Below, piece after piece: positions 33,187 through 37,231 of a stretch of 39,617 bases of DNA. The DNA is from Synechococcus sp. UW140 (GTDB lineage Bacteria; Cyanobacteriota; Cyanobacteriia; PCC-6307; Cyanobiaceae). The notes beneath the pieces are model-generated. The model had not been told where the DNA came from. It was given only the letters and a program-made list of their open reading frames with translations, and made no database searches. The DNA is taken from positions 1-39,617 of the forward strand of contig CAMBZX010000007.1 of NCBI GenBank assembly GCA_945872185.1. The letters run 5' to 3'. The stretch's first letter is position 1; each line of letters starts with the position of its first letter. The position numbers and the translations under genes were made by a program.

Positions 33187-33927
33187 TCACGGTGGGCCCA
33201 GCCTGGCCTCTCCGCCGGCTTCAGCCTGGCCCGCCAGCACCGCCGCGGCGAAGGGATTGCGGGCGATCAGGGCCGTGAGGCCCAGCTGCTGGCGCCAGTC
33301 GGCCAGGGGCCGCTCCCAGCCCTGCTCCCAGCGCTGGGCCAGCAGCGGGGCGCTGGTGCTGGCCCCCAGCTCCAGTCCGTAGGCGATCGCCCGCCCGACA
33401 TCGACCCCGGTGGGCCCATGCGGATCGAGGTCGTCGTGGACGCGATGGATCAGATCGGCGGCGAGCAACAGGGCGCAGCCGGGCCAGCGCAGCTGCTCGG
33501 TGGTGAGGCCGTTCATGGCTGCCTCGCCGGCCAGGCTGGTGGGGCAGCCGGCGATCGCATGCCAGACGTCATGGCAGTGGCGGATGCGCAGCTGCAGGTA
33601 GGTGGTGTCGCCATCGGCTCCCGGCGGTAGCACCGGCGGTGGTAGGGGCTCCAGGCCCTGGTCCAGCAGCAGATGGCCATAGGCGTGGCCGAGGCTGTCG
33701 GCCGGCAGGGCCGCCAGGGCCGCCAGCTCGGGCCAGTTGCCCCAGTAGCGCTCCTGGATCAGGGTTGCGATCGCCGGGTCGGCCTTGAGCCGGGCACGGG
33801 CAGCTTCGGCGGCCGGCGTGGCGTAGCTGGCGGCCAGCAGATCGAGGGCGTGGGGCAGGTCGCCGGGATCGGCGCAGAGCACCGCCATATCGGCAGCCAG
33901 GCGCTCCAGCTGGGGGGCGGGCTTCAT
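33187..33927 (-). CDS. Coq4 family protein
   Basis: Coq4 proteins act in ubiquinone synthesis in eukaryotes and proteobacteria, where they have been linked to C1 decarboxylation/hydroxylation. The 246-residue product carries the family metal motif HDxxH-x11-E exactly: H119, D120, H123 and E135 within RIRHCHDVWHAIAGCPTSLA and GEAAM. Other Coq4-like parts are SLGHAYGHLLLDQGL and LIHRVHDDLDPHG. The organism should make plastoquinone, not ubiquinone, so the substrate is open. The ATG at 33927 overlaps the thyX stop (ATGA), which decides the start and implies coupled translation. The gene ends 136 bases from the GH9 stop, convergent with it. Confidence 0.85.
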   Translation of the reverse strand: MKPAPQLERLAADMAVLCADPGDLPHALDLLAASYATPAAEAARARLKADPAIATLIQERYWGNWPELAALAALPADSLGHAYGHLLLDQGLEPLPPPVLPPGADGDTTYLQLRIRHCHDVWHAIAGCPTSLAGEAAMNGLTTEQLRWPGCALLLAADLIHRVHDDLDPHGPTGVDVGRAIAYGLELGASTSAPLLAQRWEQGWERPLADWRQQLGLTALIARNPFAAAVLAGQAEAGGEARLGPP

Positions 33928-34649
33928 GGGGCCAGCCGGGCTCTGTGCAGGCGGCTTTTTTCGTACCACTCGGCGAACTCGGGGACCCAGGTCTGCAGAT
34001 GGGGCCACATCAGCTCACACAGCTCGCGGATTTCCTGCTGGGCATCGAGCTTGGCGCGCAGATCGAGGAAGTGCAGAAAGGCCCGCAGCGTGAAGCTCAC
34101 CACGAAGTGCTGGCGATAGTCGAAAGGCAGGATGCCGCGGGCGTGCTCCTCGGCGAAGCCGGCCGCCAGCAGGTCGCGGTAGCGGTTGGCGGCGGCGCGG
34201 CAGAGCTCCAGGTCGATCGCCCGTTGGTCGTCGCCGTAGTGATACTTCTTGCCCTGGCGATCGCTGTAGTCGCCCACCGGCCGCAGATAGAACACCTCCT
34301 CCAGCTCCAGTTCACCTTCGGCCGCCTTGCGGATGCGATCGCCGGTGTAGCGCATTGATTGCACATCGAAGCTCACCCCCACCCGGTGGGTGCGGGCCTG
34401 CTGCATCACTGAGTGGGGAAACCAGCCCACATTGAGCACGATCTGGGCGTGCTCCAGCGGACCGTAATGGCCGCGCTCACCGGATAGCAGGCGCTTGACG
34501 CAGATTGCGCCGGCCCGGCTTTCCTCGGGCCAATCGGCCTGATCGGCCACCACAAAGCCCTCGCTGTAGTCCTGGTGCATGCCCGCATAGACACATTGCT
34601 GGGGATTGGGCGTGGCGGCGATCAGGGCGACCCGGAAGCGGGGATCCAT
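33924..34649 (-). CDS. thyX: Flavin-dependent thymidylate synthase
   Basis: ThyX makes dTMP from dUMP using methylene-THF and FADH2/NADPH, replacing ThyA. The 241-residue protein has the ThyX signature RTHRVGVSFDVQSMRYTG (the RHRxxSxxxxSxR motif in its cyanobacterial form), GHYGPLEHAQIVLN, and a C-terminal LRAFLHFLDLRAKLDAQQEI. I use the ATG at 34649 (MDPRFRVALIA); the open frame extends 23 codons further but only with Pro/Asn-rich sequence. Its partner dcd, 5 kb away, supplies dUTP for dUMP. The downstream Coq4 gene is translationally coupled. The upstream region is repeat-rich and gene-free. Confidence 0.95.
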   Translation of the reverse strand: MDPRFRVALIAATPNPQQCVYAGMHQDYSEGFVVADQADWPEESRAGAICVKRLLSGERGHYGPLEHAQIVLNVGWFPHSVMQQARTHRVGVSFDVQSMRYTGDRIRKAAEGELELEEVFYLRPVGDYSDRQGKKYHYGDDQRAIDLELCRAAANRYRDLLAAGFAEEHARGILPFDYRQHFVVSFTLRAFLHFLDLRAKLDAQQEIRELCELMWPHLQTWVPEFAEWYEKSRLHRARLAP

Positions 34650-34743
34650 GGCGGCGGGGGCGACGGGGGGAGGTGGGCTGGAGAAGCGGTTCGGCGTTGG
34701 CTGGTTCAGCGTCGGCAATTTCAGCTTCAGCGTCGGGCAATTC

Positions 34744-34816
34744 AGGGTTCAGTCAGGTCAGGGTTCAGTCAGGTCTCCGTTCGCCAGGTCAGTGTTGAAC
34801 CGGTCAGTGTTGAACC
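34744..34816. repeat. Paired short tandem repeats upstream of thyX
   Basis: AGGGTTCAGTCAGGTC occurs twice in tandem (34744-34759, 34760-34775). GGTCAGTGTTGAACC occurs twice in tandem without mismatch (34787-34801, 34802-34816). Just before them TTCAGCGTCGG is also duplicated (from 34705 and 34726). All share a GTTCAG/GTCAG core, suggesting slippage from one ancestral unit. Confidence 0.85.
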
Positions 34817-34911
34817 GTTCAATCTTGAAGGTCCCAGCTTGGGCATTTCAGTCTGGCCAAGGAGCGCCGAGCTGCGACCTGGAGCTTGGCAGTGAACGCT
34901 TCAGGCGCCCG

Positions 34912-35115
34912 CTGAACAACCGCTCGGCAGACCGAACTGACGTGCTGCCGGCCCCTTTAGAAACCCTATGACCACTGGGTTGCCGGCTGAAGCTGGGGCG
35001 CTCTGCCATGGCCTCAGCAGACCGGAGCAACATTCTGTGGGCCGTGCAGAAAGCCTCTGAGCATGGGGTTGTCGGCTGGCGAAGCGATCACCTAGGGCCG
35101 AGACAGGTTGTTCAG
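34912..35115. repeat. Inverted-repeat-bounded element with two internal copies
   Basis: CTGAACAACC (34912-34921) is matched perfectly in inverse by GGTTGTTCAG (35106-35115); with a two-base gap the match extends into CTCGGC/GCCGAG. Inside are two imperfect direct copies about 90 bases apart (34922-34990 and 35011-35078). They share blocks such as CAGCAGACCG or CGGCAGACCG, AGAAA.CC, TGA and GGGTTG.CGGCTG, at roughly 65-70% identity by eye. It could be a MITE-like relic or a structured RNA; there is no open frame for a transposase. Confidence 0.55.
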
Positions 35116-35221
35116 TGGTCTCTTCGGGGTGGCGCTTCGCCACGCAGCCTGGCACTGGGACTTCGTCGTGGCGCCTGGGGATGCGCTGCAGGTGACGAGC
35201 TCCTGGCCGGATCCGGGGCTC

Positions 35222-35800
35222 TTAGCCGTGGCTGCGGGGGTTGGCCATGGCTGGGGCTGCGCCCTGGTCGTCCTCGCTGTCGAGGCGGCTGGTGGCTCCC
35301 ACCCCGGCCAGTTGGGGCAGGGTGGTGTCGCTGAGCAGGGCCCCCACCAGGCTTTCCAGTTCGCCGCCGCTGCGGGCGCCGATCGAGCGACCCACCGCCT
35401 GGCCCGCCGCATCGAACAGCTCCAGCTGGGGAATGCCATTGACCGCGTAGCGCTCCATTTCCCCCTGCCAGCGGGGGTTGTCAACGTTGAGCATCACCAC
35501 ATCAAGGCTGCCGCGATGCTGTTGTTCCAGCCGCACCATCGCCGGCGCCATGGTGCGGCAGGCCTCGCACCAGTCGGCATAGAACTCCACCAGGGTGGGG
35601 CGGCCATCGGCCAGGGCCACCGGCAGCTCCGGCGATTGGCGCGCCAGCTGCTCCAGCTGGCCCGCTGGGTTGAGGCCACCCCGCATCCACAGCAGCACCA
35701 GGGCCAGGATGGCGGCCACGGCGGCCAGCAGCATCCGTTCACGCCGGCCCAGGGCGCTGGCCGCGGGGAGGGGGGCCGGATCCGGCAGGTTGGCAGGCAT
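35222..35800 (-). CDS. txlA: Membrane-anchored thioredoxin-like protein, TxlA/HCF164 type
   Basis: The 192-residue protein has one membrane helix (about 23-40, MLLAAVAAILALVLLWM) and a thioredoxin domain with the active site ADWCEACRTMAP (C78, C81) and the cis-Pro region VNGIPQLELFD. This is the plan of cyanobacterial TxlA and plant HCF164, which pass reductant across the thylakoid membrane for cytochrome b6f haem assembly. The tail after about 165 is low in conservation. I chose the ATG at 35800, which puts a short leader before the helix. The frame stays open upstream to a TTG at 36049, discussed separately. It is divergent from the NIL-ferredoxin gene. Confidence 0.88.
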   Translation of the reverse strand: MPANLPDPAPLPAASALGRRERMLLAAVAAILALVLLWMRGGLNPAGQLEQLARQSPELPVALADGRPTLVEFYADWCEACRTMAPAMVRLEQQHRGSLDVVMLNVDNPRWQGEMERYAVNGIPQLELFDAAGQAVGRSIGARSGGELESLVGALLSDTTLPQLAGVGATSRLDSEDDQGAAPAMANPRSHG

Positions 35801-36113
35801 GGCGAGGGCCAAGGGCAGACCGCAGGCACTCTGGCAGTTGTTGCGGCACCCCTCAGCAGACGGCTGCCCCCTCCGAAGGGGCCCTGCCTTGGGGCTGTGG
35901 GCGGGTCTCGCCCCTGGGGCCGGCTGGCTTCGGGCTGCCGCTCGTGGGGGCTGGGCTGCTGCCGTTGCTGCCTGGAGCCAGCGGCCCAGGCGCTTTCCGT
36001 TCAGGTCCAGCAGGTTCATCAGCCGCCAGCCCTGGGCAATCCAGACCAAGGCAATGCTGGCGACGGTAGGTTGGGATTGAGCTTGCTAGTTTCAACGTCC
36101 AGGGCACGGATGC
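35801..36113. other. 313-base spacer with a possible orphan coding segment
   Basis: Between txlA and the NIL-ferredoxin gene I see no established gene. On the reverse strand, in frame with txlA, 35985-36049 encodes WIAQGWRLMNLLDLNGKRLG, whose composition is unlike shadow translations here. It then runs into Ala/Pro/Arg-rich sequence without a stop. A GC-rich hairpin (CCCCT/AGGGG around CCGA, 35868-35881) lies midway, with no T tract. Confidence 0.4.
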
Positions 36114-36527: not shown

Positions 36528-37231
36528 AATCCATCCTGCGCCTGATGCTGCTGCCTGTGCAGGCTCCGATGCTGCTGCTGCTGTTTGCGGTCAGCACCTA
36601 TCTCGGCATGCACTGGAGCCGGCCGATCACCGTGGAGGCCAGCGAGCTGGCCTCCCTGGGCACTCTGGTCTGGTCGGCGGAATGTCTGCAGGCCCTGGTG
36701 GTGGTGGTGGTCTGCACCATGCCCGACCTGCTGCTGCGTCAGATTTCAAGCCTGATGGCCGCCAGCCGGGTAGTGAGCCTGGTGGTCACCTTGCTGCTGG
36801 TGATCACCGGCGGGCTCTATCTGCTGCACCTGGATGTGCTCTCCAATGTGCTGATCCTGGCCTCCACGGTGTTGCTGGCGCGGCTGGATCTGGTGCGCAT
36901 CCGGGTGTTGCCCCCTCCCCTGCTGATGGCTGCGCTGCTGAGTCTGCTGGTGCTGGGCGGGGCGGGTTTGGGCCGGGTACTGGAGGCTCGCTACGAACCG
37001 CTGCAGGCGCCACTGGCCCGCCGCACGCTGGCACCCCAGCCACGGCGCCAGCCTTCTCAGGCCGCACCTCTGGCGGCTTCACCGGCCTCAGGCAGGTTGT
37101 CTCCCCCATCCCCAAGCCCGAATCAGGCAAGCCCGAATCAGGCAAGCTCGAATCAGGCAAGTCCGAATCGGACAGTCCCGAATCGGGTCCTGCCCCGCGT
37201 CGGCCACCTCCGTACTCAGACGCCGCCCTGA
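36524..37231 (+). CDS. Membrane protein of unknown function
   Basis: The 235-residue product has about five hydrophobic segments (roughly 8-28, 48-66, 82-100, 103-121, 131-151) with short charged loops such as SRPITVEASELAS and ARLDLVRIRV. It continues into a Pro/Gln/Ser/Asn-rich tail of about 80 residues. I recognise no family. The ATG at 36524 is inside an ATGA overlap with the ferredoxin gene, which fixes the start and suggests a redox membrane partner (inference). The tail contains a 15-bp tandem repeat. The last 16 bases overlap the end of the lytic transglycosylase gene, which runs the other way. Confidence 0.72.
   Translation: MKSILRLMLLPVQAPMLLLLFAVSTYLGMHWSRPITVEASELASLGTLVWSAECLQALVVVVVCTMPDLLLRQISSLMAASRVVSLVVTLLLVITGGLYLLHLDVLSNVLILASTVLLARLDLVRIRVLPPPLLMAALLSLLVLGGAGLGRVLEARYEPLQAPLARRTLAPQPRRQPSQAAPLAASPASGRLSPPSPSPNQASPNQASSNQASPNRTVPNRVLPRVGHLRTQTPP
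37114..37188 (+). repeat. 15-bp tandem repeat, five units, near the end of the membrane-protein gene
   Basis: Five units begin at 37114, 37129, 37144, 37159 and 37174. The first two are identical (AAGCCCGAATCAGGC), the third differs by one base, and the last two are more diverged. In frame they encode an (S)PNQAS-type pentapeptide repeat at the cytosolic tail of the membrane protein. Confidence 0.92.

Follow-up and report, generated by a model that had tools for sequence, protein, structure and literature searches.

What fills the unusually long gap between thyX and a thioredoxin-domain gene in Synechococcus sp. UW140, and how did it get there? The window, i.e. the whole 39,617-nt stretch of DNA that was analysed, contains this gap between two genes on the minus strand, thyX (ORF as listed at 33924..34718; Thy1, PF02511, 149 bits; likely ATG start at 34649) and the thioredoxin-domain gene (ORF as listed at 35222..36049; domain match to PF00085). 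A sequence-only reading had noticed a 204-base segment here (34912-35115) with inverted ends and two internal copies, and offered three explanations: a miniature mobile element, a relic of a local duplication, or a structured non-coding RNA. We regard it as highly probable that the segment is an old, decayed and non-coding two-unit member of a non-autonomous, MITE-type family of ~130 bp that occurs in one cyanobacterial genus. Judging from sequence comparison, an IS5-type transposase is the most likely agent of this MITE family's past movement. Of the three explanations, the mobile element is the one that gained support, namely from copies dispersed over the genomes, the inverted ends that they share, sites that are empty in relatives, and an insertion sequence (IS) of the IS5 family with similar ends.

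The element lies where the 204-base segment had been placed, but reaches 7 bp further on each side. With ends placed by family alignment, the composite element spans 34905-35122 on the plus strand (218 bp) and consists of two family units head to tail, as indicated by matches to a covariance model and by a one-unit orthologue in a sister species. The inverted arms described earlier, CCGCTGAACAACC at 34909-34921 and GGTTGTTCAGTGG at 35106-35118, were found in the window sequence, and the extent 34905-35122 was adopted because the termini align as family ends: the left terminal inverted repeat (34905..34921, plus strand, GCGCCCGCTGAACAACC; family consensus GAGACTGCTGAAMAACC) and the right one (35106..35122, read on the minus strand as GAGACCACTGAACAACC) match at 14/17 positions without gaps. 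Arms alone are within chance: when the letters of the 572-bp gap were shuffled 100 times, 13 shuffles contained a 17-base inverted match with at least 14 agreeing positions, and the feature was therefore judged real because of its homologous copies and not because of its arms. The relatedness of the two internal copies is beyond 1000 letter shuffles (60/85 identical positions; local score 37 versus a maximum of 26). Model R1, built from nine copies, none of them from the window and one being the sister-species orthologue of the window copy, has two matches in the window, one with 47 bits at 34905-35043 and one with 79 bits at 34995-35122; when cmsearch was run with R1 on the window alone, it listed a single strong match (71 bits, 35012-35109) and not the left unit. 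Unit 1 (34905..35011, plus strand; R1 match and unit alignment) comprises the left end and body and has lost its right end, and unit 2 (35012..35122, plus strand; R1/cmsearch match and unit alignment) comprises body and right end and has lost its left end, both boundaries being approximate. ORFs from the mechanical list run across the element. The flanking TCAG (34901..34904) and TTCG (35123..35126) agree in their outer T and G and are read, on family statistics, as a decayed 4-bp target duplication.

Chance similarity, to which the segment would have been reduced if no other copy or homologue existed, is contradicted by homologous copies at dozens of unrelated places. BLAST of 34900-35125 against the window's own genome, much as proposed earlier, matched four other places, and BLAST against 40 genomes taken as relatives matched seven, all of the same genus and including the window's own; one BLAST match in G018, in an apparent coding region, was not recovered with R1. 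Matches to R1 were found in 9/42 genus genomes: at least 28 in the window's own genome (G000; two of the 28 are the window's units), at least 38 in the sister species (G021), at least 23 in G017, at least 7 in G007, at least 4 in G011, at least 2 each in G022, G015 and G053, and at least 1 in G044, all counts being lower bounds from the best 80 candidates scored per genome under stricter filters. Among 300 genomes of the taxonomic family, at least five had matches at 1e-4, all within this one of 59 genera, in a scan that scored the best 11 candidates per genome and would miss weak copies. A search with the exact pattern of one end, in a collection that may lack the records of the window's own genome, retrieved three contigs of the uncultured cyanobacterium MAG Umea1_bin-0606 and one of Bhargavaea cecembensis (L255 942-964), which is not a cyanobacterium.

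The 103 matches were reduced to 93 copies, in 60 site clusters, by dropping the row of the window itself, two partial matches (L099, L114) and seven duplicates on the opposite strand. Site statistics use one copy per cluster, and cut-offs of 60/50/40/30 bits give 31/43/53/56 sites. Most copies (74/93) measure 125-135 bp, with a range of 113-174, and the typical unit of ~130 bp is bounded by inverted ends of ~17 bp (GAGACTGCTGAAMAACC...GGTTKTTCAGCAGTCTC). To the eye, some longer copies (e.g. L056, L066, L112) have additional letter repeats within the GCCGGCTGGCGAAG part, and inner duplication therefore seems to recur. The copies are thus of the form expected for MITEs: many, dispersed, similar and short, with terminal inverted repeats and lacking a transposase gene (ORFs here come from the mechanical list only). 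By crude gene calls, 90/93 copies are not wholly within a predicted gene, and the 79 copies outside genes for which both neighbours were found lie between convergent (31), co-directional (39) or divergent (9) genes, orthologues included. Mean identity between unrelated copies is 72% (903 pairs, SD 4), and most copies are therefore considered old. Consistent with this age, 23 of the 26 other copies in G000 share their site cluster with a copy in G021, so that no recent movement is seen. Weak R1 matches include a possible second subfamily of 129-131 bp whose ends are nearer to those of IS5-type IS (candidates L201 1464-1592, L208 1538-1668, L212 1625-1754, L214 205-335 and L219 2979-3107).

The two-unit structure is the one trait to which a relic of local duplication could at most apply. 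If the segment were just a local duplication and its inverted ends a coincidence, it would be clear why two related units adjoin, and arms of this quality do arise by chance; such an origin is exceedingly improbable given same-ended homologues at dozens of unrelated places and given that the units, 71% identical to each other, differ as much as separate, unrelated family copies. The orthologue at the same place in G021 is one unit only, identical to unit 1 at 76/85 and to unit 2 at 67/89 positions, and it carries the right half of unit 2 including its three-base gap. This closeness to unit 1 combined with the right half of unit 2 suggests that the two-unit state is likely older than the split of G000 and G021 and that G021 lost a unit. 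A second copy might have inserted at or beside the first, followed by loss of the inner ends, and recombination between the units might later have removed one of them in the sister species.

Presence and absence at orthologous sites was observed. Four sites, that of L023 among them, were compared with relatives; two are clearly empty there, and a third (the L053 site) is empty in G022 (L151). At the L070/L082 site, occupied in G000 and G021, the flanks are joined in G053, G022, G017 and G007, with a joint at the ends of two apparent convergent genes that in these four empty relatives is a 4-bp gap reading TAAG or TCAG; G015 and G016 are best aligned as empty, less cleanly. In G011 the same site holds ~286 bp of other sequence (L161 ~450-740) starting with CTAG-GAGCCTGTTGCAC. 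The L054/L074 site is best aligned as empty in G053, G022, G015, G011 and G007, with messier edges. The window copy has no clean empty site among relatives because the gap around it is lineage-specific.

A unit would have inserted at a 4-bp YTAR-like target and duplicated it, and the flanks of the family retain a correlation of this kind. Across 43 sites, 85/172 letters of the 4-bp flanks agree versus 65.8 expected (p ~0.0007), mostly at the outer Y and R, position -1/+3 agreeing in 32/43 sites versus 19.5 expected. Among stretches two to seven bases long, placed up to ten bases from the ends, the 4 bp directly at the ends performed best (z 3.2); in a set of 63 copies that includes orthologues, no symmetric register exceeded 4 bp at offset 0 (z 2.9). 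Some asymmetric registers reached z 3.0 with the same 63 copies and were rejected as noise of 2304 tests. Exact 4/4 duplications are not in excess (1/43 versus 1.0 expected), and an exact-match scan of 77 copies placed the 4-bp register outside its 15 best. We read the correlated flanks as an old, decayed YTAR duplication. These flanks also bear on another kind of dispersed repeat. The ERIC elements of enterobacteria are imperfect palindromes, intergenic and of about the same length as the window family, and internal length variants add to the likeness; the two are alike by description only and the ERIC host belongs to a different phylum. It is very unlikely that the family is an ERIC- or REP-kind palindromic repeat that spreads otherwise than by IS5-type transposition, considering the YTAR-like 4-bp flanks, the empty sites in relatives and the ends in common with an IS5-family element.

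This IS5-family IS is present in the genus (NCBIfam transpos_IS5_4, 154 bits, cut-off 140), and its ends, such as GAGTTTGCTGAAAAACC, equal the element consensus GAGACTGCTGAAMAACC at 14-15/17 positions. In the complete genome G020, itself without the element by model R1, the transposase, of which G020 has an intact 347-aa form, yielded eight matches; six cover the whole query, and five of these six places have both IS ends (1391-1392 bp). Identical flanks border four of the five (TTAA, TTAG, CTAA and CTAA; the fifth has CTAG/TTAA), and outside G020, an exact YTAR stands before 10/13 listed IS ends, while the other three have TAAA, TCAA and TCAG there. According to an excerpt of PMC10359306, YTAR is the target of IS5. 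It is because of these similar ends and clean YTAR duplications that we interpret the family as a MITE of IS5 type. Matches to DDE_Tnp_1 occur in 8/9 carrier genomes; an IS701-type parent was rejected, with DDE_5 (PF13546) in 0/9.

The transposase would have been supplied in trans, either by the IS found or by a lost relative with GAGAC ends. Such transposases (E <=1e-20) occur in 25/42 genus genomes, the window's included, i.e. in 7/9 carriers and in 18/33 genomes without matches, and carriage of element and IS is therefore not tightly linked today; the carriers in which none was found at this threshold are G017 (element-rich, 64% complete) and G044. At 30 DDE_Tnp_1 loci, no IS with GAGAC ends was found, and the search for paired ends at these loci gave two pairs, one with GAGTT (L169, the IS described above) and a weak one with GAGGC (L167). 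Inspection by eye of 15 further loci with end-like matches showed no GAGAC pair. Among the matches listed between element interior and IS, none exceeds 15 bases or is better than E 0.016. With an interior that, in the matches listed, resembles the IS in nothing beyond short words, the element is not a simple deletion derivative of an IS5-family element. Two elements of G021 have an IS5-type end near their right edge, at a distance of 4 bp (L050 136) and ~100 bp (L040 1732), and resident elements may therefore attract further insertions.

Some observations fit a structured RNA. None of 200 shuffles folds as well as the window element, either as RNA (z -4.8) or as DNA (z -2.6), and 14/43 copies have z < -2 on each strand versus 3/43 left flanks. 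An inner 8-bp helix covaries, with 23 cells changed on both sides versus 10.2 in shuffles (0/500 reach this) and both-side changes in 7/8 pairs (17/500 shuffles reach this), a signal that subfamilies could cause in part and that, by the warning of the tool, related sequences can produce beyond all shuffles. The covariance analysis proposed by the sequence-only reading gave a positive result for the inner helix; the terminal pairing and two other local hairpins were not clearly above shuffles, and all-pairs covariation of 42 copies (alignment A4, 42 rows, with L056, one of 43, left out for its long insert) placed no nested Watson-Crick pairs at the top. By crude gene calls, 11/53 sites abut a stop codon versus 7/124 intergenic YTAR words (Fisher p 0.005). 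These features would suit a structured RNA or a bidirectional terminator under selection at gene ends, the hairpin of which ends or stabilises mRNAs, an explanation that we find quite unlikely. Between G000 and G021, identity is 0.845 in elements and 0.824 in near flanks, which include coding parts, and elements score higher in 11/22 pairs; elements no better conserved than their flanks speak against a present function, and 33/42 genus genomes have no matches at all. Rfam returned no family above cut-off for the element in the window (tRNA elsewhere only) or in L023, L040 and L041, its one sub-threshold match within 34651-35222 being to a microRNA family (24 bits versus a cut-off of 82), and a simple scan gave no terminator-like or promoter-like site.

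We hold that folding, helix and siting at stop codons are marks of a hairpin-forming MITE that survives at harmless places, and not of a kept RNA gene. A more specific, though rather unlikely, version of MITE spread would be benign insertion: a master sequence, its inner stem under selection, would prefer stop codons, often those of convergent genes, with the YTAR duplication sparing both, and the stem would then aid transposase recognition or insulate transcription. If real, such a preference for stop codons would offer a testable example of how a transposon limits harm to its host.

Compared with known systems, the family resembles IS5-family MITEs in being short, in its inverted ends and 4-bp YTAR-like target, and in the presence of a similar-ended IS5-family IS in the same genus, but differs in that its ends match those of the IS at 14-15/17 only, the interior is unrelated and a same-ended parent was not found among the loci searched. 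An excerpt of PMC10969869 covers MITEs of cyanobacteria (Nezha, the ISSoc2-derived elements of Synechococcus, and those of Anabaena and Microcystis), beside which the window family is set by description only. The GAGAC-ended family is new, although its kind, the MITE, is already known; it is absent from the publication titles found by literature search, and an excerpt of PMC2246112 contains nothing on it. For this genus, an IS5-type MITE family is thereby defined whose sites lend themselves to comparison between species.

The long gap between thyX and the thioredoxin-domain gene is a lineage-specific expansion. Measured between two fixed pieces, the spacer (34650-35221 in the window) is 555 bp here; of nine relatives, six have 23-32 bp and the other three 105, 152 and 440 bp, nine of ten loci being measurable and the tenth (G021) breaking off. 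These lengths imply that the gap grew in the window's lineage and in some others, and the locus provides an example of MITEs growing into double units and helping to swell an intergenic gap. The 440 bp in G011 are a filling of its own. At the far edge of the gap, the stop codon of the thioredoxin-domain gene (35222-35224) sits within TTAG (35222-35225); G021 has ATAG at this place and then an IS5-type end, which lies ~100 bp rightward of its orthologous element. Upstream of thyX, 34688-34829 consists of degenerate tandem repeats with periods of 15-21 (TTCAGCGTCGGCAA, TCAGGGTTCAGTCAGG, GGTCAGTGTTGAACC), the copy number of which differs in the sister species G021. A further 15-bp tandem repeat of 4.8 copies lies at 37113-37184, inside long open frames of the mechanical list.
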